From contig VGYB01000002.1 of assembly GCA_016873115.1 (NCBI GenBank), positions 62,001 to 126,000 on the forward strand: DNA of 64,000 nucleotides, in the 5' to 3' direction. Numbering within the stretch: the first letter of the stretch is position 1; each line of letters opens with the position of its first letter. This document shows positions 6,575 to 25,621 of this stretch, in pieces. A program made the translations under genes and the position numbers. The DNA comes from Planctomycetota bacterium. Its GTDB lineage: Bacteria; Planctomycetota; Phycisphaerae; Phycisphaerales; SM1A02. The notes under the pieces are model-generated. The model saw only the letters and a program-made list of their open reading frames with translations. It had not been told where the DNA came from and ran no database searches.

Positions 6575-9121
6575 TCAGGGGGTCCACGAGGTCAGCAGGA
6601 TGCCAAGGTCGGCGCCATCGACGAGACCGTCTCCGTTGAAGTCACCTGCACCGTTGGTCCCCCAGCCCGTGAGCAGGATGCCGAGGTCGGCGCCATTGAC
6701 CACACCGTCGCCGTTCAGATCACCCGGCACCGGCGGTGGGCAGATCGGGCCGGTCTGGGCCACGGTGAGTTGGCCCGTCCCCTGGTAGGTGGAGGCGCTG
6801 TAGCCACCCACGGCAATCAGGTAGGTCTGGCCGCAAACCGCGTCGAAGGTGAGGGAGCTGGTGAACCCACTGCAACCTGGACCATCGTCATTGCAGCCGA
6901 CGACCGACGAGGCTGCGCACCCAGTCAGGACCGCCAGACGCGTGTCATGATCCGCGGCGTTGCAGGTGGACACCGTGCATGAGCCAGATCGCTCGGGCTG
7001 GTATGCGAACCAGACTGCGTTCCAGACCTTCGTGTTCCCCGACGATCCGAAGGAACATGCACCAGCCAGGTCCAGGTCCTGGGTCGCGCCTGCACGATCG
7101 AAGGGAGTGATTCCCAGACCGATCGCGAGCGGATTCGTGCACGACAATCCGGCCGGCCCTTGGTTGACCCGGAATGTTGCCTGGCCCGCCGAGTTGCCGA
7201 TCCCGCCAACGCGGATCGTCACGGGTACCCCCGAAGGGAGTTCGACGCTCAGGGCCGACCGCAGCGGCAGGCAGGACGGATCGTCAGCATCGTCGTTGCA
7301 TGCAATGAGCGAACCGCCAGTGTTGGGGCAGCCTGACCACGCCTCGATCACCGAATCGAATGGAGCAGTGCCACCGCCGCAGGTATCGAACTCGTACACG
7401 CTGGTCTGGGGCGGCACGAAGAGGAAGTACACATCGCGGCCGATCGTGATCCCGTCGCATGTCGGCACGGCTGTCTCGGCTGAAGCCAGTGCCGTCGAAA
7501 TGCCAATGGACTGCCCCACGATCACCGGTACGGCCCCCGCGCACTCATCGCTGCCACCGAGCGTGCCGCCCGAACCGCCACAGACCTCGCAGTAGGACCG
7601 CGCGTAGGTCGCGCAGATCGAGTCCCATGTGATGGCACAGCAGAAGCCATCGAGGCTGCAAACGCGTTCGCAGCAGGTGTTGTCGGAGCAGAAGGGCTGA
7701 TCGGCTGCGTGCGCCTCACAGCACGGCAGCGCACCTGCATCTTCACAGCTCGGTCGCGTGCCGACGAATTGCACGAAGAGCGAGGCTTCGCCCACCGCAC
7801 CATCCCAGCCGCCAACCCGGATGATGTAGGGCTCGGATGCCGTCGTGGCCCCGAGGTTCACGTAGAGGCTGGATGCGAACTGCAGATCGGAACCATCCTG
7901 CAGGTTGCACTGCTCGCCGTCGTCATTGCATGCGATGGGCGATGCACCCACGATTGGGCAGCCACGCCAGACCTCGACGCCGGTATCGAAGTACGGACTG
8001 CCCTGCTCGCATGTCGAGATGAGGTAGTCGCCTTCAAGGCCAGCTGGTGGACGGAAGAGGAAGAACACGTCCCGGGTGAAGGGCTGGCCTGCGTAGCCGC
8101 ACGAAGCCTGCACGAAGTTGGTGGCGGCGAACCGATTGGAGAACGGCACGAGGACCGAAGGGTAGGGATCCCCGTTGTTGGGCAGATTGATCGGCGTAGC
8201 CCCACCGCAGGTGTCGTTGCTCGGTGGATTGGCATTGCAGGGTACGCCGCTGATGCGCAGGACATACTGGTTGGAGGGGCTCGATGCGGTCGGCGGGAAC
8301 GGTACGCCCGAGAAGGCATCTGGAGCGACGAAGACCTGGTAGGAGCCGGGTGCAAGGCACACCTGGCCACTTGACGGACACTCTCCGGTCTCCGGACTTG
8401 ACTGCGTGACCATCAGGAGGTTGTTGCAGTCACCCTGATTCAGGATGGCAGCGAAGCACAGCGCTTCGGAGAACACCTCGAGCTTGACCTCAGTGGCGGC
8501 GGGAACCGAGAGCTTGTACCAGTCGGTGTCGCGCTGGGCGGCGCCGCCCGGTGGTTGGAGTGCCCAAGTGCAGCCGAGGATGGAATCGCCGACCACGACC
8601 GCCTGGTTGGCCGGGTTGCCACAGCTTCCGTTGAGTTCCTGAAGGCACTCCTCGACTTCGGTCTTGTTGTGCGGTGGTAGGGTGCAATCGTTGGTGCAGA
8701 CCCCACTGCAGAGCGACCGCGCAAGCAGTGCACACCCGCCATCCCAGGCAGTCTCGCAGCAGAACGGATCCTTCGAGCACACCGTGTCGCAGCAGGCTGC
8801 CTCGCCGCACCCTCGGCCTCCGTGCGGTTGGCAGCAGTCACCGCTCCCGCAGCTGCAGTCCTCGCAGATCTCGTTCGCCTGGTTCGCACAGATCGCATCC
8901 CATTGCGAATTGCAACAGAACGGATCGACGGCGCAGACCGCATTGCAGCAGCCGGCGTTGGCACAACCGGCGCCGGAACCGGCGGTGCAGCAGTCTTGGC
9001 TTGAGGTTGGGCAGTCCACCGGAGCGGCCTTGGCCCCCATGGGAGGTAGAGCGACAGCCAGCAAGACGATCAGCGCAATGAGTGCGCGGGCAGACCAAGG
9101 TGTTGATCGAGGGAAGCGCAT
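6575..9121 (-). CDS. Secreted Cys-rich PPC/dockerin-like protein (848 aa)
   Basis: Paralogue of its two neighbours. The start at 9121 gives a classic Sec signal ([20 protein letters not shown], cleaved after about GAKAA); an in-frame ATG 27 codons upstream would place a long polar segment before it. Three copies of the Cys-rich W-D module are present, two at the N-terminus and one near residue 490. Four beta-sandwich units with the pattern NDTC...[13 protein letters not shown]...ACNDDG resemble PPC domains. The C-terminus carries the double Ca-binding motif [14 protein letters not shown] and [14 protein letters not shown]. The Cys content predicts heavy disulfide bonding after export. Function is unknown. 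Confidence 0.8.
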
Positions 9122-9230
9122 CGTGGAGCCTGGCGCCAGTCGGCGTGGCGGAAACCGAATACTGACTGGCGTAACTATCGGATCATGGGGGGGCAAGGTC
9201 AACCAAACACCCGACTTTCTCGCTCAGGGG

Positions 9231-9307: not shown

Positions 9308-11959
9308 TCACGGGCAGACCTGGCCGAACACCGCAAGGAGGGCACCAAGGTCGGCACCGTCCGTAAGGCCATCGCCGTTCATGTCGCCCGCAGCGCTGAT
9401 GCCGAAGGCGGCCAGAAGGAGACCAAGGTCGGCGCCGTCACGGATGCCGTCGCCATTGAAGTCACCCGGGCACGGCGCGCTGCAGTTCGTCCCGTTGGCC
9501 GTCGACACCGTCATGGTGCCGGTGCCAAGGGGCGTGCTGGCGGAGTAGCCACCGACCAGGATGTAGTACTGCTGACCGCAGACGGCATCGAAGGTGAGCT
9601 CGCTGGTGAAGCCAGCGCACCCCGTGAAGTCGTCGTTGCAAGCCACCACCGTGCTCGCAGCGCAACCGGTCTGCACCGACAACCGCGTGTCATGGTTCGC
9701 CGCGTTGCAGGTCGACACCGTGTAGGTGCCGCTCTGGGTCGGGGCGAACTTGTGCCAGATCACGTTGAAGTTGGTGTCAGTGCCAAACGGCCCCATGTCG
9801 CAGATGCCGGCGTAATCCAGATCCTCGGTTGCACCCGCTCGGTTGAACGGAGTTGCGCCGGTCTGGATGGCGATGGCGGATTCACAGGTGAGACCCGGTG
9901 TACCGCCGCCGCCGCCACCGCCCTCGGAGGTGATGGCCAGCGTTCCGGTTCCGAAGCCTCCAGCCGCGTACGCACCGAGGCGGATCGTCACAACCTGACC
10001 AGCCGTCGCCGCGAAGACGACACTGCTGGTGAAGTTGGCGCAACCGTCACCGTCATCGTTGCAGGCGATCAGGGTTCCACCACACGCTGTCAGGATGTCG
10101 ATGCGGGTATCGAACGTCGCGTTGTTGCATGTGCTGGCCGTGAAGTTGCCAGCGCTTGGCGCAGCGAAGGTGAACCACACATCGTTGTAGAAGCCAGCCG
10201 CGAAGGATCCACAGGAAGGATCCGTGGGATTGTTCCCATCGGTGGTTGCGCCGTTGGTGTCAAACGGATGGTTGCCAAGACCGACCGACTGCGCATTGGC
10301 GCAGTTGTCGTTGGCTGGTGGATCACCACCACCACCACCGCAGACCGAGCAGGAGGCGATGGCTGCATTCGCGCAGATCTGGTCCCACTGTGTATCGCAG
10401 CAGAACGCATCTGCCGCGCAGACCAGCGTGCAGCACTCGACATCCAGGCAGCCGGGGCCGGTTCCAGGGACGCAGCAGTCGCCACCTGAACCGCAGCCGC
10501 CGCCGCCACCGCCGCCGCCACCGCCACTGCAGTCACCCTGCACGGCGCAGTCGCCGCCATCGAAGGCGAACTCTTCGCAGTTCAGGCAGATGGGCACGCC
10601 ACCGAAGGTGTAGGTGCCATCGTCGCAGTAGCCGTCACCGACCCAGTTTGCGGGGCAGCAGGCTCCGTTGCAGTCCTCAATCTGTCCAGCCGGGCAGGAG
10701 CCGTCATTCGGGGCGATGACGAGTTCGGTCGCTCCGGTCGCTCCGTTCCAACCGCCGACCAGGATGATGTAGGGCGTGCCAGCGGTGCCTTCGAACACGA
10801 GGCTCGAGGCGAACGCCGCGCAACCTGCACCGTCGTCGTTGCAGGCGATCTGCGTGCCACCCGCGTCGGGGCAGCCGTCGTACACTTCGATGCCGGTGTC
10901 GAACGGCGCTGAACCGCTGCAGGTTTCAAGGGACCAGAAGCCTGTGGTGGGGGGAGTGAAGGTGAAGAACACATCGTTGGTGAACGGAAGGCTATTGAAG
11001 CCACAGCTGGGGATGCCCCAATCCGTGTTGGCGAAGGTGTTGTCGAACGGATTCGCGCCCACCGAGGCCACCGCCGCATTGGCGCAGGTGTCGTTGGCTG
11101 GTGGGGACGCGTCGCAGGCGACGCCGCCGATCTTCAGGGTGTACTCGTTTCCGACGCTCGCGCCGCACGCGTACCCACTGAAGACGCTCGGCAGCGCTAC
11201 GACATAGTAGCTGCCGGGTACGACGCAGACTGCGGTCGTGCCGGGGCAGGCTCCGGTGGTCGGATCGCCGATGATCGAACTGCAGCTCGTATTGACCACG
11301 GCTGCAAAGCAGGGCATGTTGGAGAAAATCTCCAAGCTGATCTCGGTCGCTTGGCTCACCGTGATCTCGAACCAGTCCGTGTCACGAGTGCCAGCGTTGG
11401 CCCAGAAGGTGCCTGCGATCTGCGCACCGATGGCGGCGGGCTCGTAGATGCCGCCATTGCAGCCGCCGTTGATGTCGTCGCCGCAACTCTCTTGTTCAAA
11501 ACTCGTGCCCGGTGGAATCGTGCATCCGCCGCCGCCGCCGCCGCCGCAGACTGAGCAGTTCACGACAGCTGCATCCGCGCAGATCTGGTCCCACTGTGTC
11601 TCGCAGCAGAACGCATCTGCCGCGCAGATCTGGGTGCAGCACTCGACATCGGCGCAGCCGGGGCCGGTTCCAGCAACGCAACAGTCACCACCTGAACCGC
11701 AAGGACCGCCGCCGCCGCCGCCGCCGCCGCAAACTGAGCAGGAGGCGACAGCTGCATTCGCGCAGATCTCGTCCCACTGTGTCTCGCAGCAGAACGCATC
11801 TGCCGCGCAGATCTGGGTGCAGCACTCGACATTCAGGCAGCCGGGGCCGGTGCCAGCAACGCAACAGTCACCACCTGAGCCACATTGGGCCATCGCGGTG
11901 CTCGTTGAAACAAGCAGCATCGCGGCAGAGGCGAGCATGCCAAGGTGGAAGCGCTTCAT
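9308..11959 (-). CDS. Secreted Cys-rich protein with poly-Gly linkers, Notch-like repeat and dockerin-like tail (883 aa)
   Basis: Sec signal peptide (MKRFHLGMLASAAMLLVSTS, cleaved near AMAQ). Two nearly identical Cys-rich W-D modules (starting CGSGGDCCVAGTGPGC) are joined by a run of Gly, and a third copy lies mid-protein. Several PPC-like beta-sandwich units follow (NDTCANAA..., NDNCANAQ...). A segment DGYCDDGT...LNCEEFAFDGGDC is close to the Lin-12/Notch repeat. The C-terminus has DFNGDGIRDGADLG and DMNGDGLTDGADLG. The ribosome site GAGGAGA lies 8 bases before the ATG. The gene is monocistronic: a strong terminator follows it, and a 253-base intergenic region with repeated GGTTCAC words precedes it. 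Role unknown; probably surface or secreted. Confidence 0.85.
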   Translation of the reverse strand: MKRFHLGMLASAAMLLVSTSTAMAQCGSGGDCCVAGTGPGCLNVECCTQICAADAFCCETQWDEICANAAVASCSVCGGGGGGGGPCGSGGDCCVAGTGPGCADVECCTQICAADAFCCETQWDQICADAAVVNCSVCGGGGGGGCTIPPGTSFEQESCGDDINGGCNGGIYEPAAIGAQIAGTFWANAGTRDTDWFEITVSQATEISLEIFSNMPCFAAVVNTSCSSIIGDPTTGACPGTTAVCVVPGSYYVVALPSVFSGYACGASVGNEYTLKIGGVACDASPPANDTCANAAVASVGANPFDNTFANTDWGIPSCGFNSLPFTNDVFFTFTPPTTGFWSLETCSGSAPFDTGIEVYDGCPDAGGTQIACNDDGAGCAAFASSLVFEGTAGTPYIILVGGWNGATGATELVIAPNDGSCPAGQIEDCNGACCPANWVGDGYCDDGTYTFGGVPICLNCEEFAFDGGDCAVQGDCSGGGGGGGGGGCGSGGDCCVPGTGPGCLDVECCTLVCAADAFCCDTQWDQICANAAIASCSVCGGGGGDPPANDNCANAQSVGLGNHPFDTNGATTDGNNPTDPSCGSFAAGFYNDVWFTFAAPSAGNFTASTCNNATFDTRIDILTACGGTLIACNDDGDGCANFTSSVVFAATAGQVVTIRLGAYAAGGFGTGTLAITSEGGGGGGGTPGLTCESAIAIQTGATPFNRAGATEDLDYAGICDMGPFGTDTNFNVIWHKFAPTQSGTYTVSTCNAANHDTRLSVQTGCAASTVVACNDDFTGCAGFTSELTFDAVCGQQYYILVGGYSASTPLGTGTMTVSTANGTNCSAPCPGDFNGDGIRDGADLGLLLAAFGISAAGDMNGDGLTDGADLGALLAVFGQVCP

Positions 11960-12692: not shown

Positions 12693-14345
12693 TCAGTAGC
12701 TATATCCCTCGACGACCGTGTAGTTGCACGAACCGACGGGCGAATCGCCCACGCTGACGCCCTTGATGACCACATTGAGCGTCGGGGCGAAGATCAGGTG
12801 CAGCGACTGATCACCGGATGAACTCACATTCGGCAGATCCTCGAGCTTGGTGATGGGCTTGGTCGCGTCGATCCGTACGCGCACCTTGTCCTTCTGTTGC
12901 CAGAAGAAGCCGATCGGCTGAAATGTTCGGCCATTGGCATCGACGAGCAGAAGCGGCTTCTCCTTGAACTGGCGCTTGAGTTCGTGAAGGTCGACTGCCG
13001 ACTGGCCGCGCGTGACATTCAAGCGGATGATCGCCGTGCCCTCCGGCGCATAGAACCCCTTGACGGCACCGGCCTTCATGGCGGTGGAGAATCCGCCCTT
13101 CGGGAACTCATAGTCGCCCTGCTTGAGGTAGTTCGCCTTCTTGCCCTCGAAGGCGACGAACGTCCCGATGTTGTTCAGGTTGAGTTGCAGTGGAGAGACC
13201 GAGTTGACATTGTCGATGCCATCCTGACCTTCGGGGATGCTGCGTGCGCTCGAGAAGTCGATCAGCGCCGAGGATGCGGCCGATCCGCCCTCGATCCCGA
13301 GCACGGAGGTCATGGGCTTGCCTTGTGGCTCCGGCAGGCGGATGCGCAAGCCCTTGAGGAAAACATAGTCCGGAACCTGTCCAGCGAAGATCCCTGCGGG
13401 GAACACCAGCACGATCTTGGCGGTCTGCGTGCCGGGCGCACTCGTGACAAAGTTCGCCGTGTCGTCGAACGGGAAGAGTTCGCGACCCGCCTTCTCACCG
13501 TCCTGCGTCCATTGGAGCGGAAAGGCGACGGTGCGGTTCTTGGTGGAGAGCAATCGCGCCTGAGCACCAGTCATGATGAACTGCTCTCCGCCATCGTAGG
13601 TGGTGGAATCGAAGGTGACCCCGACTGCATAGGCGCCAGGCTGGCCATCCGCAGCGTTGTACCGCTCGTCGTACCAGAACCCATCGAGCGTGACCCCGGA
13701 CGGTGCCACGGCGGTCCGGCCGACGCCACCGCTCCAAGTGTCGCGGTGGAGGCCGAACGCGACATCGCTCACATTGGGCTGCAGCTTGGCCAAGCCGAGC
13801 GCACTGAAGTTCCGGAACGCCCCCATGCCTCCGCGACCGCCGAGGGTGTTGTAGACCGCTTCCGTGACCTGCATCGGATTGGGAAATGGAGCCATCGTGT
13901 TCATGCGGCTTGGCTGCGCACTGCTGGCTTGGTCACGAACGAACCCACGGAAACCCAAGACCTCGTTCGTGCCCTGGACGAAGCCGCAGGCGATGCCGGC
14001 CAGACCGATGCACAGGATGCCCGAGCAGAGTCCGAAGATGGCACCGCCGAGCCTGTCGAGCAGCGGGTGGAATCGCATGTTGGCGGGCACGAAGCGCTCC
14101 GTGATCACGCGGGCAAGCAGCAGGTAGACGATGAACTGCCCCCCAAGCGAGAGCCCCCATGCGTAGTTGTCGATGAGTCCGCCACGGAGCATGAGGTGGG
14201 CAACGGGTTCCCAGAGCGCAATCGCCAAGGCACCTGCGCACAGGCTGCAGAGGCAGAACTGGACGCTGCTGAAGAAGCCTTGCGAGGACCACCAATAGGC
14301 GATCAGCGCGATGAGGACCCAGAGAATGATCGAGAAGGGATCCAT
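12693..14345 (-). CDS. CvpA-family membrane protein with large C-terminal domain
   Basis: 550 residues. The first 130 or so form four hydrophobic helices of CvpA type (starting MDPFSIILWVLIALIAYWW, with GLCSGILCIGLAGI as the fourth). The remaining 400 residues are polar and beta-rich, with no motif I recognise. The segment around residues 350-480 (GTFVAFEGKKANYL, FYAPEGTAIIRLNV) looks like a soluble sandwich domain, presumably outside the cytoplasm or facing the periplasm. The gene is last in a three-gene operon, 9 bases after the GspE-like gene. Standard CvpA proteins are about 160-200 residues, so the C-terminal extension is unusual. Confidence 0.7.
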   Translation of the reverse strand: MDPFSIILWVLIALIAYWWSSQGFFSSVQFCLCSLCAGALAIALWEPVAHLMLRGGLIDNYAWGLSLGGQFIVYLLLARVITERFVPANMRFHPLLDRLGGAIFGLCSGILCIGLAGIACGFVQGTNEVLGFRGFVRDQASSAQPSRMNTMAPFPNPMQVTEAVYNTLGGRGGMGAFRNFSALGLAKLQPNVSDVAFGLHRDTWSGGVGRTAVAPSGVTLDGFWYDERYNAADGQPGAYAVGVTFDSTTYDGGEQFIMTGAQARLLSTKNRTVAFPLQWTQDGEKAGRELFPFDDTANFVTSAPGTQTAKIVLVFPAGIFAGQVPDYVFLKGLRIRLPEPQGKPMTSVLGIEGGSAASSALIDFSSARSIPEGQDGIDNVNSVSPLQLNLNNIGTFVAFEGKKANYLKQGDYEFPKGGFSTAMKAGAVKGFYAPEGTAIIRLNVTRGQSAVDLHELKRQFKEKPLLLVDANGRTFQPIGFFWQQKDKVRVRIDATKPITKLEDLPNVSSSGDQSLHLIFAPTLNVVIKGVSVGDSPVGSCNYTVVEGYSY

Positions 14346-14354
14346 GGTCGCTCC

Positions 14355-16088
14355 TCAGGGCTTTGGGGCGGGTTTGACTGGTGCAGGGGCAGCCGATGTG
14401 GCTCCTCCAGCCGCCGGGGCTGCTGGTCTGGTCGACGCAAACGCACGCGCCACATCCTCGATCGTGGTGCGACCGTCGCGCACCGCCAGGAGCGCCGATT
14501 CCTGCATCAGCATCATGCGCAGGTTGCGGCGTGCGTGCTGATAGGCCCCGGCGATGTCACCCCGCGAAAGGATCTTGCGCGCTTCATCGTCGAACGGCAT
14601 CACTTCATGGACGCCGATCAGGCCGAAGTAGCCTGAACCACCGCAGACCTCGCAGGCTTCCTCGCGTCCATTCTTGGCGATGACCTTGCCGCTGGCACGC
14701 GCCAGTTGGATGGTCTTGCCGGCCGGTAGGCCTAGGCGCTTGGCCTGCTCAGCCGAGCAAGGCCCCATGATCTTGCACGCGGGGCACGGAACACGCAGCA
14801 ATCGCTGGGCCACCACCGCCTTGACGCCGCGAGCTGCGTCGCCGGCGCTGCCCACTGACTTGATCCACTGCGCCAAGGCCAGTTGTACCCCGTCGACGGG
14901 GATGCCGACATAGGTGAGCACCTGATTGCCCGACGCATCGCTGATGACCTTGGCAGTGCCTGAATCGGCAACATCCGAGGTGTAGACGACATCGGGACCG
15001 CGGCGGATGATCGACCTGAGGGTGGTCGCGAAATCAGATTGCGTCGTGGGGTCGAACTGGAGCTGGTCCACGCCGTCGAGCCGGAGATCGAGGCTGCGCT
15101 CGAGTGTCTTCACGCTGCTGGTGAAGGCATCGTGCCGTGACAGCATGGCATAGGCCATCGTCGTCAGGCCGAACCCTGACGGGGCGCAGAGCAGGATGAT
15201 GCCCTCGCGACCAGGAAGGTCCCGCGTGGGCTCGAGCAATGCCAGATGCTGCTTGGTGAAGCCAAGGTCAGCGAAGTCGCGCTTGAGTTGCTCATCACGG
15301 TTGAAGTCGATGCGCATCGACTGGCCTGCGGTCGATCCCGTGGTGGTGACCGTGAGTTCCTTGGATCCAAGGCTCGTCTGCACGGTGACCTTGCCCACCT
15401 GGCGCCGACGGCGCTCGTTGACATCCAGCCCCGCGTGATTCTTGATGTAGTCCATCATCTTGCCGCCAAGCTCGGCGGTCAGTGCATCGCGCTTGGTGGG
15501 GATGGCATCGATCACATCCGCCACGATGACGCTGCCGTCGCGTGATCGGATCTCCGTGCGGCTGGCACGGGCGGCGATCGCTTCGCCAATGACGCGCTCG
15601 GCGGCTTGGTGCACCTCGAGCATCGGGTCATCCTTGCCGGGGACCGTGGCCTTCTCGCTGCGACCGACGAGGAAGACAATGTTGGCTGCCGCGGCGTTCT
15701 TCTGCGCCTTGCGCTCCTCTGCCTTGTCCCTGAGCGTCGAGAGCATGGAGAGCTGGAACTGCTTGCCCGGTGGGACCTGCTTGTCGCGCCACTTCCAGTA
15801 GCCGACCAGGATCCCCGCCTCGATCAGGAGGGTGACCAGCCAGCCAGCGAAGGGGACCAGCAATCCCACGGCGACAGCAACGATGCCACCAGTCAGGAGT
15901 CCGGGGTTGATCCAACCGTAGCCGCCCCTGGTGAGGTTGTAGGCGGTGGCATCCTTCTCGATCTTGGACGAGATCACCCACGCATACGGCGCATAGACAG
16001 CCAGCGTCAGCACCGGCGTGACGGGGTTCAGCAGGATCGCCGCGTCACCGACGGCCAGGAGGGCAGTGGTCATGGTGGTCAGGCTCAT
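14355..16088 (-). CDS. GspE/PilB-like pseudo-ATPase with N-terminal membrane segment
   Basis: 577 residues related to type II secretion / type IV pilus assembly ATPases, but apparently inactive. The Walker A position reads A-P-S-G-F-G-L-T-T (302-310), with Leu308 replacing the essential Lys. The Walker B / Asp-box region G-E-I-R-D is S-D-V-A-D (371-375), so the catalytic Glu is gone. The His box is not recognisable. By contrast, the Zn-binding CPAC...CEVC pair and the C-terminal GYFGLIGVHEVM segment are kept. Two hydrophobic helices at about residues 20-35 and 65-95, atypical for GspE, would anchor it to the membrane. It lies between the intact PilT-like gene and the CvpA-domain gene. Likely a structural or regulatory partner rather than a motor. 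Confidence 0.75.
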   Translation of the reverse strand: MSLTTMTTALLAVGDAAILLNPVTPVLTLAVYAPYAWVISSKIEKDATAYNLTRGGYGWINPGLLTGGIVAVAVGLLVPFAGWLVTLLIEAGILVGYWKWRDKQVPPGKQFQLSMLSTLRDKAEERKAQKNAAAANIVFLVGRSEKATVPGKDDPMLEVHQAAERVIGEAIAARASRTEIRSRDGSVIVADVIDAIPTKRDALTAELGGKMMDYIKNHAGLDVNERRRRQVGKVTVQTSLGSKELTVTTTGSTAGQSMRIDFNRDEQLKRDFADLGFTKQHLALLEPTRDLPGREGIILLCAPSGFGLTTMAYAMLSRHDAFTSSVKTLERSLDLRLDGVDQLQFDPTTQSDFATTLRSIIRRGPDVVYTSDVADSGTAKVISDASGNQVLTYVGIPVDGVQLALAQWIKSVGSAGDAARGVKAVVAQRLLRVPCPACKIMGPCSAEQAKRLGLPAGKTIQLARASGKVIAKNGREEACEVCGGSGYFGLIGVHEVMPFDDEARKILSRGDIAGAYQHARRNLRMMLMQESALLAVRDGRTTIEDVARAFASTRPAAPAAGGATSAAPAPVKPAPKP

Positions 16089-16121: not shown

Positions 16122-17261
16122 TCAACGGATGCCCTTCAGACGCATCTTGAGTTCCTCGGGCTTGGGCGTCGCTTGCAGCGCGACATTCTGGTGGACATAC
16201 TCACGCTCGACCAAGTCGACCAGGCTGCTCGTGAAGTCCAGCATGCCTTCGTGGTGGCTGTTCTTGATGATCTCGAGCAGCTCGCCCTCGCGGCCCTCCA
16301 GGATGTACTTCTGCACGCCGGGGGTGTTGATCAGGATCTCGATCGCCGGGATGCGGCCGATGTTGGCGTGCAGCGTGGGCAGGAGCTTCTGGTAGATGAT
16401 GGCCCGCAGGTTGTAGGCCATCAACTTGCGGATCTGGTCGCGTTCCTGCTCCGGGAACAAGTCGTAGATGCGGCCGAAGGTCTGCCAGGCGCTGGAGGCA
16501 TGGATGGTCCCGAAGACCAGGTGCCCGGTCTCGGCCGCGCGGATGGCCGCTTCGAAGGTCTCGTAGTCGCGCATTTCGCCGACGAGCACGACATCCGGGT
16601 TCTCGCGGACCAGGGCACGGAGCGCATCGTTGAAATTGGTGCAGTCGATGCCGATCTCGCGCTGGTTGATCGTGGCCTTCTTGTCCTCGAAGATGTACTC
16701 GATCGGGTCCTCGATCGTGACGATGTGCACCTTCTTGCGCTCGTTCACGTAGTCGAGCATGCTGGCGATGCTCGTGCTCTTGCCCGAGCCAGTCACCCCG
16801 CTGAAGAGGATCAGGCCCTGCGCGGACATGGAGATATCGCCGAGCGTGGCCGGAAGGAAGAGCTCCTCGAACTTCTTGATGTTGCTCGTGATGAGGCGTG
16901 CGGCCAACGCAGGCTTGCCGCGGGCCATGAACATGTTGACGCGAAACCTTCGGCCCCTCTCGAAGTCGTACGCGAAGTCAATTGAACCCATGCGCTCGAA
17001 GTGCTCGAGCTGGTTCGGGTCGAGGATGTCCCTCGCGACCTGGAACATCAGGTCCATGGTGCAGGGCGGTGTCGCCAGATCCCTCAGTGCGCCACGGTGG
17101 CGGATGCGCGGCGGCAGGCCGGACTTGACGATCAAGTCACTGCCTTCGAGCTGGACGGTGGCGGCCAGCCAACTGTGCCAGGCCTTCTTGCCTTCGCCCT
17201 GCGTGGTGCCGCGCTGCTTGGTGATGATGGGGACGAGGAGTTCGTTGCGCGAAATGGACAC
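16122..17261 (-). CDS. pilT: PilT-like type IV pilus retraction / secretion ATPase
   Basis: 379 residues from a GTG at 17261, chosen because GGAG sits 7 bases upstream and the frame further 5' runs antisense through guaB. A hexameric cytosolic AAA-type motor of the PilT/PilU group: Walker [10 protein letters not shown] near residue 155, Asp box VTIEDPIEY, Walker [10 protein letters not shown], His box GTIHAS. All catalytic elements are present, in contrast to the next gene. PilT powers pilus retraction; no pilin or pilus assembly genes are in the window. The gene heads the operon with the pseudo-GspE (33-base gap) and CvpA-like genes. Confidence 0.85.
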
Positions 17262-17402: not shown

Positions 17403-18869
17403 ATGGAAGGCAAGATCATCCAGGACGGCATCACCTTCGACGATGTCCTCCTGATCCCCCGCGCGAGTTCCGTCACCCCTGACCGCGCCGACACATCCAC
17501 CCTGCTCACGCGCTCGATCCGCCTCAACATTCCCTTGGTGTCGGCGCCCATGGACACGGTGACGGAGGGGGCGATGGCGCGTGCCTTGGCGCAGGAGGGT
17601 GGCATCGGCTTCATCCACAAGAACATGGCCATCGCGGCGCAGGCTCGTGAAGTCGCCAAGGTCAAGCGCAGCGAGAACGGCGTGATCACCGACCCGGTGA
17701 CGCTCAGAGCCGGGGACACCGTCGAACGAGCCATGGCACTCATGAAGGAGCAGGGCGTCAGCGGGTTCCCCGTGGTCGATGGCACCGGCAAGCCTGTAGG
17801 CATCGTCACGCGCCGTGACATGAAGTTCATCGCCGGCGCACCCGGCATCGCCAAGGTCAGCGAAATCATGAGTTCGGCGCTCGTGACGGCGCGCCATGAC
17901 GTGGACCTCGAGGAAGCCGGTCGGCTCATGACGAAGGCGCGTGTCGAGAAGTTGCTGCTGCTGCATGCGGACGGTCGACTCGCCGGGCTCGTGACGATGC
18001 GCGACATCGACAACACGCGCCGGTATCCACATGCCTGCCGTGACGAGCGCGGCCGCCTGCGCGTGGGCGCCGCAGTCGGCGTGAACCAGCTCGACCGGGT
18101 CGAGGCTCTGATGGCAGCCGGCGTGGATGTGATCGGCATCGACACGGCGCATGGCCACAGCGCCAACGTCATCGAGACGGTGCGCCAGGTCAAGAAGCGC
18201 TTCGACATCCCTGTCGTGGCGGGAAATGTCGGAACCGCCGAGGCCACCAAGGCGCTCATCGATGCCGGTGCCGATGCCGTGAAGGTCGGCATCGGGCCCG
18301 GTTCGATCTGCACCACGCGTGTGGTGACCGGAGTGGGCATGCCGCAGATCACTGCGGTCATGAATGCAGCGTCCGCTGCTTCCAAGGCAGGCATCCCGGT
18401 CATCGCTGACGGCGGGATCCGCCAGTCCGGTGACATCGCGAAGGCGCTCGCCGCCGGAGCGCAATGCGTCATGCTCGGCGGGCTCTTCGCGGGACTTGAT
18501 GAGAGCCCGGGTGAGCAGGTGCTGCACCGGGGCCGCCGCTTCAAGACCTACCGAGGCATGGGCAGCGAGGGTGCCATGGCGGCAGGAAGCGCGGATCGCT
18601 ACGCCCAGGGCGGCAGCACGAAGTTCGTGCCCGAGGGCGTTGAAGGCATGGTGCCGTACCGTGGGCCGCTCTCCGAGTTCGTCTTCCAGATGGTCGGCGG
18701 CCTGCGCTCGGCGATGGGCTACTGCGGCTGCGCGAACCTCGAGGAGTTCCGTCGCGATACACGCTTCGTGCGCATCTCCGCTGCAACGGTCGTGGAGAAC
18801 CATCCGCACAGCATCCAGATCACTCGGGAGGCCCCCAACTATTCCCGTGGCACCTTCGACGGCAACTGA
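17403..18869 (+). CDS. guaB: IMP dehydrogenase
   Basis: 488-residue enzyme catalysing IMP + NAD+ to XMP + NADH, the committed step of GMP synthesis in the cytosol. The N-terminus [11 protein letters not shown] matches the family, which fixes the start. A CBS domain pair lies at about 95-205 ([19 protein letters not shown], then [19 protein letters not shown]). The catalytic loop [11 protein letters not shown] places the nucleophile at Cys303. The phosphate loop [16 protein letters not shown] and flap segment RYAQGG are present. Length equals the bacterial norm. It is followed directly by tRNA-Leu. It has its own promoter and appears to lack a leader. Confidence 0.97.
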
Positions 18870-20681: not shown

Positions 20682-22274
20682 ATGCAACGCTTCCTCGTGA
20701 TCACGCTGCCGCACTGGTCGGTCACGGCACGCGCACGCCTGGTGCAAGCGCCCGTCGTGGTCGTGGTCCGCCGCAAGGGTGCGCTCATGGTGCATGCCGC
20801 GAGCAGGCAGGCGCGTGCCGATGGCGTGGAGCGGGGCATGCCACTGGCCCAGGCCAAGGCGCTGCTGCAGTGCGAACCCCATGAGCTGGAACACGATCCC
20901 GCTGCCGATCATCGCGCATTGCACACCTTGGCACGCTGGTGCCATCGGATCTCGCCCTTGGTCCAGCTCGTGCACGATGATGATCCGGCTGCACTCGTCA
21001 TCGACCTGACTGGCCTCGAGCGCGTGCATCGTGGCGAGGATCGCCTGCTGGTCCGGCTGCGCTCGCACATGGACCGCTTCAGGGTCGAGTGCACCCTGTG
21101 GACGGCATCCACGCAGGCGGCCGCCAGCGCTGCGGGCTGGGCTGCACCAAGCGGCCACGACGGCATCATCAAGCACGGCGAGGAGCGCTGGCGCACCCGC
21201 GCCTGCCCGGTCAGCGCCCTTCGAATCGATCCTGAGCTCGTGGCCATGCTGCATGAAGTCAATGTGCGCACGCTCGATGACCTTCGTCAGGTGCAGCGCG
21301 CGCAGGTCGCGCCGCGCTTCGGCCAGCGCTTGCTCGATCGGCTCGATGCCATCCAAGGATTGGTGCTCGAACCGTTCCGGGCAATCCGCTGCGTGCCCGA
21401 CATCCAAGGCGAGGTCATCTTCGACGGTCCATGCCCGCAGGTGGAGGCGCTCTGCCGGGCCATGCAGTCCTGCTTCGAGCAGATCTGCACGCAGTTGCAG
21501 GACCGTGGCCGCGGCGCACGCACCTTCACGGTGCGCGTGCAGTGCAGCGACCTTCCGCAGCATGCATGGACCATCCGCTGCACGCAGCCGATCCGTTCGT
21601 GGGACGCCGTGCGACCGCTCGTCTTGCCTTCCCTGCAGGATCTGCCGCTTGGGCATGGCGTGGAGGGGGTCCAGGTGATCGCACGAAGCCTGCGGCGCGT
21701 GGCACCGGTGCAGGTTGGCCTGCAGGGCACGCGTACCGCGGGTGAGCACGGCGCACTCTGGATCGACAGCCTGCGCGAACGATTCGGGGCGGATGCGGTG
21801 TGTGTACCCCGGGTGCGTGCCGTGCGCCGCCACGCATGGCACGAAGGCACCGTGGCGATCGATGCCTTCACCGAAGGCGACCGTGATGGCGTCGACGGCG
21901 TCAACAGGATCGATGATGCCCACGGCATGCATGGCGTGGATCCAACCCGTGCTTCCATGCACGCACTCGCCAGCGAGCCATCTTGCCCGTGGCCACGGCC
22001 TGAGCGCATCACCGTGACACGCCATGGCCCCGATGCCCCATGGCCCACCCCGCCCGCCCATTTCCTCTGGCGTGGCACGGCGTGGCACATCCTCGGCTGC
22101 CAGGGGCCACAGCGCCTGGCTGGTGCATGGTGGCACGCGCAGGATCCAGGCACGCGGGATCACTGGCGTGTCCATGCTGCACCATCGACAGTGGATCCAT
22201 CGGGTGACCATGCATGGCTTGCCCTGGTCAGGCACGATGATGGCTCGTGGTGGGTACACGGGGCATGGACATGA
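20682..22274 (+). CDS. imuB: ImuB-like Y-family polymerase homologue
   Basis: 530 residues related to Y-family DNA polymerases. Visible features are the N-terminal palm region (LVITLPHWSVTARARLVQAP, QARADGVERGMPLAQAKAL), the V-I-D-L-T-G-L-E-R segment where an active polymerase would have catalytic acids, the helix-hairpin-helix/finger part (LRIDPELVAMLHEVNVRTLDDL) and a little-finger region. ImuB proteins are known to be catalytically inactive hubs that bind the beta clamp and recruit DnaE2 and ImuA. The last 150 residues are rich in His and Trp. The stop codon overlaps the dnaE2 start as ATGA. Confidence 0.85.
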   Translation: MQRFLVITLPHWSVTARARLVQAPVVVVVRRKGALMVHAASRQARADGVERGMPLAQAKALLQCEPHELEHDPAADHRALHTLARWCHRISPLVQLVHDDDPAALVIDLTGLERVHRGEDRLLVRLRSHMDRFRVECTLWTASTQAAASAAGWAAPSGHDGIIKHGEERWRTRACPVSALRIDPELVAMLHEVNVRTLDDLRQVQRAQVAPRFGQRLLDRLDAIQGLVLEPFRAIRCVPDIQGEVIFDGPCPQVEALCRAMQSCFEQICTQLQDRGRGARTFTVRVQCSDLPQHAWTIRCTQPIRSWDAVRPLVLPSLQDLPLGHGVEGVQVIARSLRRVAPVQVGLQGTRTAGEHGALWIDSLRERFGADAVCVPRVRAVRRHAWHEGTVAIDAFTEGDRDGVDGVNRIDDAHGMHGVDPTRASMHALASEPSCPWPRPERITVTRHGPDAPWPTPPAHFLWRGTAWHILGCQGPQRLAGAWWHAQDPGTRDHWRVHAAPSTVDPSGDHAWLALVRHDDGSWWVHGAWT

Positions 22275-25200
22275 GCGCATCGCTCCATCCCGGGGCATCG
22301 GTCGCCGTGGATGTCATCAGTTCGTTCAGCTTCCTCGAAGGGGCAAGCCAGCCCGAGGAACTGGTACGCCGGGCAGCCGCGCTCGGCGTGCAGACGATCG
22401 CCATCGCCGATCGGCACACGCTGGCTGGTGCCGTGCGTACCCATGTGGCTGCACGCGATGCGGGAATCCGCACGATCGTCGCGGCAAGGGTGGCGGTTGA
22501 GGTCGGGATCGAGCCTGCGGCCACCATGGCGACCGATGGCCATGCCGTGAATCCTGCCACGACCGATGATGCGAATCCTGCCCCGAACATTGCCGAGCCC
22601 ATCGACCTGATCCTGCTGTGCATGGATCACGGTGGGTACAGCAGGCTCTGCCAGCTCATCACGCTCAGGCATGCGGGTACGAAACGCCTTGTTTGGCACG
22701 ATCTCGATGGCCGGCTCGACGGCCTGCATGCGATCGTGGTTCCGCGGCGTGGCCTGCAGCTGGCCACGTCAACCTTCCAGCAGGCCGTGGCCGATCTGGC
22801 GCGGCGTGCCCCGGGCAGGGTGTCGCTGGCACTCTCGAACACCGCCGAGGGCGATGACGATCACCGATGGTGGCAATCCTGCATGCTTGCCGAGCATCTC
22901 GGCATACCTGTGGTTGCAACGCATCCCGCGCACATGCATGTGCCCGAGCGCCAGATGGCCCACGATGTCCTGTGCTGCATCCGCCACGGCACCACCCTTG
23001 AGCGCGCAGGTGCGTTGCTCGCCCCCAATGCCGAGCGATTCCTGCGCTCACCGCACGAACTGCAGGCCATCCATGCCGGCGTACCGCACGCGCTGGATCG
23101 GGCACAGGCCATCGCCACGGCCTGTGCGAGTTTCGACCTTGGCCAGGTCAGGCACCGTTCGCCGCGTGAACTCGTGCCCCACGGCCACACGCCCATGTCC
23201 TGGCTGCGTGTGCGGACCTGGCAGGGCGCCGCCGAGCGGCATCCCGATGGCGTTCCCGAGCGCGTGCGTACGCTCATCGAGCATGAATTCACGCTGATCG
23301 AGGACCTCGACTACGCGCCGTTCTTCCTGACCGTCGACGACATCGTGCGTTTCGCCCGTTCACGCGGGATCCTCTGCCAAGGGCGTGGTGCCGCCGCCAA
23401 CAGCGCTGTCTGCTGGTGCCTGGGGATCACTGCGGTGGATCCTGCGCGCGTCGACATGCTGTTCGAGCGCTTCGTGAGCCGTGAGCGCAACGAGCCCCCC
23501 GACATCGATGTCGACTTCGAGCACGAGCGCCGCGAGGAGGTGATCCAGTACATCTATGGCCGCTTCGGCCGCGAGCGTGCAGCACTCTGCGCCGAGGCCG
23601 TCTGCATGCGTGGCCGCATGGCCGTGCGCGAGGTCGCCAAGGCCATGGGATTCCCGGCCGATGCGGTCGATCGCATGGCGCGCGGCATCGATCGCTGGAT
23701 GGGCCATGGCGGCGATCGCGACGATCAGGCATCGATCCTGGCCGCGCTCGAGGAAGCTGGGTTCAGGCCGAGTGATCGGGGCATCACGCAGCTGGCCTCG
23801 ATTGCCGCCACGCTCATCGGATTCCCGCGGCATCTGTCGCAGCATGTGGGCGGCTTCGTGCTCAGTGATGAACCACTCTGCACCCTCGTGCCCGTGCGCG
23901 ATGCCGCCATGCCCGGCCGCAGCATCATCGAATGGGACAAGGACGACATCGAGGCCATGGGGATCCTGAAGGTCGATGTGCTGGCCCTGGGCATGCTCAC
24001 CTGCATCCGCAAGGCACTCGACATGGTCGCACGATGCGGCACCCCGATGGCCATGCACCAGGTGCCGGCCGAGGATGCGGTGACCTACGACATGCTCTGC
24101 CGCGCCGACAGCGTGGGGGTGTTCCAAGTCGAGAGCCGTGCGCAAATGAGCATGCTGCCGCGCCTGAAGCCGCGCCGGTGGTACGACCTCGTGGTGCAGG
24201 TGGCCATCGTCCGGCCGGGTCCGATCCACGGCAAGATGGTGCATCCGTACCTGCGCCGCCGCAGCGGCCAGGAACCAATCGAGTTTCCCGATGACGGAGT
24301 GCGGCGCGTGCTCGAGCGCACGCTCGGTGTGCCGCTCTTCCAGGAACAGGCCATGGCGCTTGCCGTGGTCGCCGCCGGGTTCACTCCCGGCGAGGCCGAT
24401 GCCCTGCGCCGTGCGATCGCCGCATGGAAGCGGCGCGGCGACGAGATCGCGCGCTTCGAACGCCGGCTCATCGAAGGCATGGTCGGCCGTGGCTACGGGC
24501 AGGCCTTCGCCGAGCAGGTCTTCACGCAGATCAAGGGGTTCTCTGGGTACGGCTTCCCCGAAAGCCACGCGGCGAGCTTCGCACATCTGGTCTATGTGAG
24601 CGCCTGGCTCAAGTGCCACCATCCGGCCGCCTTCACGGCGGCGCTCCTCAACAGCCAACCCATGGGGTTCTATGCGCCCGCGCAGCTTGTGCGCGATGCC
24701 CAGGAGCATGGCGTGCAGATCCGACAGGTCGATGCCGTGCACAGCGATTGGGACTGCACGCTCGAACGGCACAGGGCAACGCACGCGCCGGCAGGGCCCG
24801 ACGCTCGATGGCAGGCAGCATCGCGTGGCCGGCATCATGGCGATCCGCCGCAGCAAGGCTGGGCCCTACGGCTCGGCATGCGCATGGTGCGCGGGCTGTC
24901 CGAGCGCGATGCGCTGGCGATCCACCAGTCGGTGCGCGAGCATGGACCGCGGCAGGGCATGATGTCACTCTGGCGCACCAGCCGTGCAAGCCTGGCCTCG
25001 CTGCGGGCGCTTGCCCGTGCCGATGCCTTCCGGGGCATGGGCCTCGATCGGCAGCAGGCGCTCTGGCAGGTGCGCGCCCTCAAGGAGCGCGATGGTCCGC
25101 TGCACGAGCAGTGGGTCGCCTCGTCCAAGCGCAGCGCCACGCTCTGGGACACGCTCGAAGAGCCGGCCGAACTCCCACCGGTCGCGGCACCGGCCACAGT

Positions 25201-25621
25201 GCTGGCCGATTACGGCTCGATCGGCTTGAGCCTCAAGGCCCATCCGATCTCGTTCCTTCGCGGCTGGCTCGCGCGGCAGGGGTGCGTGCCATGCGCGCTC
25301 GTGCGCTGTGACCAGGCGCTGCCCACGCGCAGTCGTGCAGCCATGGCAGGGCTCGTCCTGGTGCGCCAGCGGCCATCGACCGCCAAGGGCACGATGTTCC
25401 TGACGATCGAGGATGAATCGGGATCGGCCAACGTGATTGTGCGGCCCAAGGTCCACGAGCGCTTCCGTCGCGCGATCCGGGCAAGTTCGGCCCTCATCGT
25501 GCAGGGTCGCATCGAGCGCCGTGATGGCGTCTCGCACCTGCTCGCACGCAGCGTGCAGGGGATCGATGACGCACGCGCCGAGCACGGACCGGTCACGATG
25601 CACTCACGCGACTTCCGTTGA
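22271..25621 (+). CDS. dnaE2: Error-prone DNA polymerase III alpha subunit
   Basis: 1116 residues. C-family polymerase for damage-induced mutagenesis. The N-terminal PHP domain begins FSFLEGASQPEELVRRAAAL, but the metal-binding E-L-H of active PHP domains reads V-D-V, so it is probably not a nuclease. The polymerase acids are in PPDIDVDF (D411, D413) and KVDVLALG (D569). A later FQVESRAQM and VAIVRPGPIHGKMVHPYL segment is typical. The C-terminus has an OB fold (KGTMFLTIEDESG). The start at 22271 gives an ATGA overlap with imuB; ATG 22265 is also possible. Last gene of the cassette. Confidence 0.93.
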   Translation: MSASLHPGASVAVDVISSFSFLEGASQPEELVRRAAALGVQTIAIADRHTLAGAVRTHVAARDAGIRTIVAARVAVEVGIEPAATMATDGHAVNPATTDDANPAPNIAEPIDLILLCMDHGGYSRLCQLITLRHAGTKRLVWHDLDGRLDGLHAIVVPRRGLQLATSTFQQAVADLARRAPGRVSLALSNTAEGDDDHRWWQSCMLAEHLGIPVVATHPAHMHVPERQMAHDVLCCIRHGTTLERAGALLAPNAERFLRSPHELQAIHAGVPHALDRAQAIATACASFDLGQVRHRSPRELVPHGHTPMSWLRVRTWQGAAERHPDGVPERVRTLIEHEFTLIEDLDYAPFFLTVDDIVRFARSRGILCQGRGAAANSAVCWCLGITAVDPARVDMLFERFVSRERNEPPDIDVDFEHERREEVIQYIYGRFGRERAALCAEAVCMRGRMAVREVAKAMGFPADAVDRMARGIDRWMGHGGDRDDQASILAALEEAGFRPSDRGITQLASIAATLIGFPRHLSQHVGGFVLSDEPLCTLVPVRDAAMPGRSIIEWDKDDIEAMGILKVDVLALGMLTCIRKALDMVARCGTPMAMHQVPAEDAVTYDMLCRADSVGVFQVESRAQMSMLPRLKPRRWYDLVVQVAIVRPGPIHGKMVHPYLRRRSGQEPIEFPDDGVRRVLERTLGVPLFQEQAMALAVVAAGFTPGEADALRRAIAAWKRRGDEIARFERRLIEGMVGRGYGQAFAEQVFTQIKGFSGYGFPESHAASFAHLVYVSAWLKCHHPAAFTAALLNSQPMGFYAPAQLVRDAQEHGVQIRQVDAVHSDWDCTLERHRATHAPAGPDARWQAASRGRHHGDPPQQGWALRLGMRMVRGLSERDALAIHQSVREHGPRQGMMSLWRTSRASLASLRALARADAFRGMGLDRQQALWQVRALKERDGPLHEQWVASSKRSATLWDTLEEPAELPPVAAPATVLADYGSIGLSLKAHPISFLRGWLARQGCVPCALVRCDQALPTRSRAAMAGLVLVRQRPSTAKGTMFLTIEDESGSANVIVRPKVHERFRRAIRASSALIVQGRIERRDGVSHLLARSVQGIDDARAEHGPVTMHSRDFR

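Follow-up and report, generated by a model that had tools for sequence, protein, structure and literature searches.

The protein of 577 aa encoded at 14355..16088 on the minus strand of the window, by which we mean the whole 64,000-nucleotide stretch of planctomycete DNA analysed here, is, judging from its sequence, a membrane-anchored pseudo-ATPase descended from an active motor subunit of the PilB/GspE type. Strong purifying selection acts on the gene, which encodes a retained protein, not debris. Catalysis has apparently been lost repeatedly among its relatives while the neighbouring PilT stayed intact, assuming that PilT and its neighbour share a history. We assign a probability of about one half to the reading that this protein, together with a CvpA-like protein, serves as a non-catalytic membrane scaffold on which an active PilT-type motor works.

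A retained pseudo-ATPase with a PilB/GspE fold

The reading frame (P0001) is open from its ATG to its stop on the minus strand, and the plus strand of the same stretch contains stops in that frame. It forms the middle of a tight same-strand run, in which a PilT-family motor ATPase gene (16122..17261, minus strand, start codon approximate) ends 33 nt upstream of it and a gene for a CvpA-like protein of 550 aa (12693..14345, minus strand) starts 9 nt past its stop. The window also encodes two large Cys- and Gly-rich proteins on the minus strand (6575-9202 and 9308-11959), probably secreted, in which GSGGDCC..G.GC modules recur and the C-terminal ends are dockerin-like (DFNGDG..DGADLG). On the plus strand, the gene at 17403-18869, divergent from the PilT operon, is by eye presumably IMP dehydrogenase-like, and the overlapping genes at 20682-22274 and 22247-25621 are what we take, also by eye, to be ImuB and DnaE2, an error-prone repair cassette.

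Homology to the GspE/PilB family is evident from the T2SSE domain, the PilB/GspE fold and the tetracysteine motif. Residues 161-548 score 120.9 bits with Pfam T2SSE (PF00437), whose cut-off is 24.9; this is the sole Pfam match in the protein, with none to an N1/MshEN domain. The scores lie far below the equivalog cut-offs for GspE (TIGR02533, 155.5 versus 630.25 bits) and PilB (TIGR02538, 130.7 versus 675.65 bits). Monomers were modelled with AlphaFold2, and the model of the pseudo-ATPase (115-row alignment, mean pLDDT 92.6) predicts that the PilB/GspE fold has been kept: its residues 154-552 align structurally with PilF, PilB and GspE (382 residues, best Z 38.1), and the best PDB match is again PilB/GspE (TM 0.85 by the target's length; Foldseek E 9e-32). 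The protein thus shares with GspE/EpsE and PilB/PilF (PF00437; PDB 5OIU, 5TSH, 4KSR) the N2D and CTD fold, the zinc motif and the C-terminal segment. It differs from them in lacking the residues of a functional motor (the Walker A Lys, the acids of the Asp box, the catalytic Glu, both Arg fingers and the His box) and in carrying membrane helices at its N terminus instead of N1/MshEN, and no pilin or PilC gene was seen in the three-gene run.

Residues 1-105 of the model are mostly helices of membrane length, and both the model and hydropathy place three of them at residues 23-49, 60-77 and 82-104 (15777..16022, minus strand). The preliminary description had listed these helices, absent from GspE, beside the destroyed catalytic motifs. 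They are real but are not tied to the decay, since the same N-terminal domain, in one copy per genome, is found in intact relatives from other planctomycetes; a joint gain of membrane helices and loss of catalysis is thereby ruled out. The membrane domain is ancestral and older than the catalytic loss. A profile search with this domain found it in 126 of 392 genomes of the phylum, in exactly one copy each.

Residue roles were taken from PilB structures (PMC5424180, PMC6858323) and carried over by alignment and numbering, with an offset to PilB of +23 in the ATPase core and +25 at the Arg fingers, so that they are themselves inferred. The P-loop reads CAPSGF-G307-L308-TT, with Leu308 in place of the Walker A Lys (remnant at residues 307-310, 15159..15170, minus strand), and the former GE(I)RD box is SDVAD (residues 371-375, 14964..14978, minus strand), both as had been noted from the letters alone. 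The same holds for the zinc-binding region (14643..14786, minus strand), where the Cys pairs C435/C438 and C479/C482 are kept, and for the C-terminal segment. An alignment of 109 Phycisphaerae orthologues was compared with 30 intact relatives. The Walker A Lys is absent from all 109 and from all 22 sequences of the Pirellulales-type families (a grouping with named loci in our trees), and present in all 30 intact relatives. Seven catalytic residues were taken as key (the Lys, the Asp-box Asp and Mg-coordinating Glu, the catalytic Glu, one His and two Arg fingers); none to two of them survive in 104 of the 109 orthologues, while all seven occur in 29 of the 30 intact relatives. The four Cys are 97-99% conserved among the orthologues. 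Features common to intact and dead forms include the four Cys, R432, R227, Q230, K216, G307, D320, E330 and a C-terminal G-T-E-R pattern. In one clade (genus g30 of family f2; L058, L059, L061, L063, L136), three of the four Cys (both of the first pair, one of the second) are missing, and zinc binding has therefore probably been lost there too.

That ATP is still bound or hydrolysed by the altered site strikes us as very improbable. G307 and the Thr after it persist (T309 in 94/109), E330 of the Asp box stands in 108/109, and Arg takes the place of Lys in 16/109. Position 308 is nevertheless mostly hydrophobic (L 44, V 26, I 10, with R 16 and others making up the rest), and the Mg-coordinating Glu, the catalytic Glu, the Arg fingers and both His are mostly gone.

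The search sets comprised 60 relatives and 150 genomes of the class Phycisphaerae; a first search (E <= 0.001) gave matches in 61/61 genomes, a count that includes ordinary T2SSE paralogues, and the class search (E <= 1e-37) gave matches in 143 of 150, with clear orthologues separated by score from ordinary PilB/GspE paralogues. Within the genus, dN/dS is about 0.09 for the pseudo-ATPase and 0.07-0.08 for its dead ATPase core, compared with 0.094 for PilT. The proposal that a pseudo-ATPase has been selectively retained is thus borne out. A sequencing error or frameshift is ruled out by an identical gene in a second genome (L002) and by more than 100 orthologues, and a recent loss in one lineage by the class-wide dead state, no orthologue within the class having an intact Walker motif. 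We consider a decaying, non-functional remnant hardly credible: divergence is faster than in intact relatives (by region means), and one lineage, G539, lacks the Cys pairs as well, but the frame is open in more than 100 genomes across the class, dN/dS is low, synteny is kept and each genome has one copy. In one genome of the same genus, a second copy with 84% identity (G005:C6:40270-41979) accompanies one identical to that of the window, possibly in a mixed bin.

Apparent repeated loss of catalysis

Intact and dead forms occur side by side outside the Phycisphaerae. In terms of our working family labels (f-codes), intact forms were found in f48 (16/16 newly fetched genomes), f107, f110 and f55, in G478 of f106 and in Singulisphaera sp. 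(L284). Dead forms were found in the Pirellulales-type families f89, f98, f105, f109 and f111, and further in Thermogutta sp. (L264), a Gemmatales bacterium (L274) and G572 (f113). Intermediate states also exist, in that three of four f102 genomes and G539 (f106) have the Lys and lack the Asp and GEIRD boxes; in the fourth f102 genome the Lys is lost too. The form in G539 (L345) is a young dead one, lying within an intact clade, in which the Lys is present and the Asp box, GEIRD and all four Cys are gone.

The number of losses depends on which tree is taken as the guide. The pseudo-ATPase's own tree requires one change of state, with a weak support of 49, and its long dead branches may attract each other. 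The adjacent PilT, intact in every case and slower to evolve, was taken to stand in for the history of the operon. Mapped on the PilT tree, the dead state requires five changes, at least three of them forced by well-supported branches: G539 falls inside a clade of otherwise intact forms with support 100, and the Pirellulales-type dead forms share a clade of support 99 with the intact f48. Holding all dead forms together on the PilT tree costs 221 log-likelihood units (p-AU 6e-50), so that a single origin of the dead state, which fits the pseudo-ATPase tree, is rejected there. Repeated loss is the best reading, because a regain of three motifs at once is implausible.

Partners of the pseudo-ATPase

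The steadiest neighbour of the pseudo-ATPase is the CvpA-like gene, which the preliminary description does not mention. It lies downstream in 106 of 107 Phycisphaerae loci, 19 of 22 Pirellulales-type, 28 of 30 intact and 7 of 7 other loci, as found with a profile of its N terminus built from Phycisphaerae only. We call the protein CvpA-like because the window copy scores under the Pfam gathering threshold for Colicin_V (PF02674; 24.1 versus 29.3 bits), which the relatives L154 (30.2 bits) and L201 (34.0 bits) pass. The AlphaFold2 model of the window copy (pLDDT 90.9) shows four TM helices and, after them, beta-rich domains. The four-TM N-terminal domain is the likeness to the CvpA/Colicin V production protein; the difference, apart from the score, is some 400 residues of beta-rich extracytoplasmic domain, for which Foldseek returned no significant PDB match. 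The partners beside the intact forms examined are about 190-250 aa long, compared with 550 aa in the window.

The PilT-family protein of the window passes TIGR01420 (399.1 versus 319.1 bits) with Walker A, Asp box, GEMRD and His box whole, as had been stated. An operon with an intact PilT, as described for the window, is also the usual arrangement, PilT being the immediate upstream neighbour in 89 of 108 Phycisphaerae loci and standing at a distance of one gene in a further two, and the readable copies keep the Walker Lys in 90/90 and the Glu in 89/90. The linkage does not extend to every lineage. Among the 108 loci, 17 are without an adjacent PilT, and in the f8, f15 and f48 genomes examined an operon-type PilT lies elsewhere in the genome. 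The pseudo-ATPase is kept in family f11, G088 and G117, where the best PilT matches do not group with the operon-type clade and, in several f11 genomes, lie next to an ordinary pilB. The absence of an operon-type PilT there is moderately firm, as the tree flagged long branches meeting, and PilT is no obligate partner if these genomes, as it appears, do without the operon type. The genome of the window also holds other active PilB-type ATPases and a canonical PilT.

These distributions bear on whether the pseudo-ATPase and the CvpA-like protein stand on their own as an envelope or secretion-control module, to which the linkage of PilT is incidental or historical. The CvpA-like linkage is more constant than that of PilT, holding in 17/17 loci without an adjacent PilT, and the pair is kept in some lineages in which no operon-type PilT was found. 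Set against this are the conservation of PilT adjacency and order in most of the class, in the Pirellulales-type families and in several intact lineages, and a dedicated PilT subfamily that tracks the module. On balance we regard independence from PilT as somewhat unlikely, though a reading to be kept in mind.

A mixed hexamer, in which the pseudo-ATPase would be the non-catalytic subunit (as in F1 alpha/beta) beside PilT or an active PilB paralogue, seems to us unlikely. The fold of a hexamer subunit is kept, and R432 is invariant in 109/109 Phycisphaerae orthologues and in all 161 sequences compared. By numbering, R432 would be the counterpart of R455 of PilB(Gm), which touches the neighbouring subunit where the nucleotide-free interface is open (PMC5424180, PMC6858323). 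The zinc site close by may explain the conservation of R432 more simply. One candidate for an active paralogue is FHA-PilB, the nearest non-TM relative in the tree, which retains its motifs intact. In two f8 loci (L123, L154) it is flanked by PilT and the pseudo-ATPase, in G062 it stands beside PilT, and it is also encoded elsewhere in the genome of the window (L083). Yet full-length FHA-PilB is missing from most genomes with a pseudo-ATPase, including all Pirellulales-type genomes sampled, which rules it out as a universal catalytic partner. Moreover, the Arg fingers that would serve a neighbour's active site are mostly gone (kept in 16/109 and 31/109), and PilT and PilU are reported as separate homohexamers (PMC6821130). 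FHA-PilB, which has an N-terminal FHA-like domain and occurs in part of the class, was located at L083:937-2661 (G000:C25:28314-30035), L123:5857-7608 and L154:6012-7733.

A proposed scaffold for a PilT-type motor

Under the scaffold reading that we prefer, the pseudo-ATPase and the CvpA-like protein would be joined in a fixed assembly in the membrane, probably ring-shaped. This assembly would no longer consume ATP and would serve an active PilT-type motor as its docking scaffold, as a stator or as a regulatory ring. This motor would be the operon's own PilT or, where that is missing, the canonical PilT. Because PilT would supply the power, catalysis in the pseudo-ATPase would be dispensable, in keeping with its apparent repeated loss. 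The module order PilT - pseudo-ATPase - CvpA-like is conserved. T2SSF (PilC-type) proteins were present in 80/80 genomes checked, and the module may therefore be tied to a pilus or a secretion machine whose genes lie elsewhere.

The closest precedent from experiment is the PilT/PilU pair, two linked paralogous motors of which one can be dead and still needed: ATPase-dead PilT supports retraction when PilU gives catalysis (PMC6762196). The dead variants in that system are mainly engineered PilT mutants, whereas here the protein is of the PilB type, naturally dead and membrane-anchored. A further likeness is to the intact membrane-anchored PilB-like proteins of other Planctomycetota (L200, L203 and L284 of Singulisphaera sp.), which have the same TM domain, a CvpA-like gene downstream and often PilT upstream, and differ in that all their catalytic motifs are present. 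In the open literature searched, a scope mostly outside subscription journals, we found no paper linking a pseudo-ATPase, GspE/PilB and planctomycetes; the fold family is well known, and a natural, class-wide and recurrent pseudo-ATPase within GspE/PilB was not found there.

A bolder proposal, which we hold to be rather improbable, is that the membrane-anchored dead ring joins PilT and the CvpA-like protein in a pilin-free and PilC-free motor across the inner membrane, in which PilT would turn or pump the membrane-fixed ring and the extracytoplasmic domains of the CvpA-like protein would work in the envelope. If this is true, type IV pilus motors would have been put to a new use. More generally, one position of a conserved module at which catalysis has apparently been lost several times, beside intact homologues of the same architecture, offers a natural experiment for telling apart what hexameric pilus motors do as structures and as enzymes. 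The neighbour that most constantly accompanies this pilus-motor homologue is the CvpA-like protein, from a family whose function is poorly understood, and the findings imply that planctomycete genes named GspE often encode no motors.
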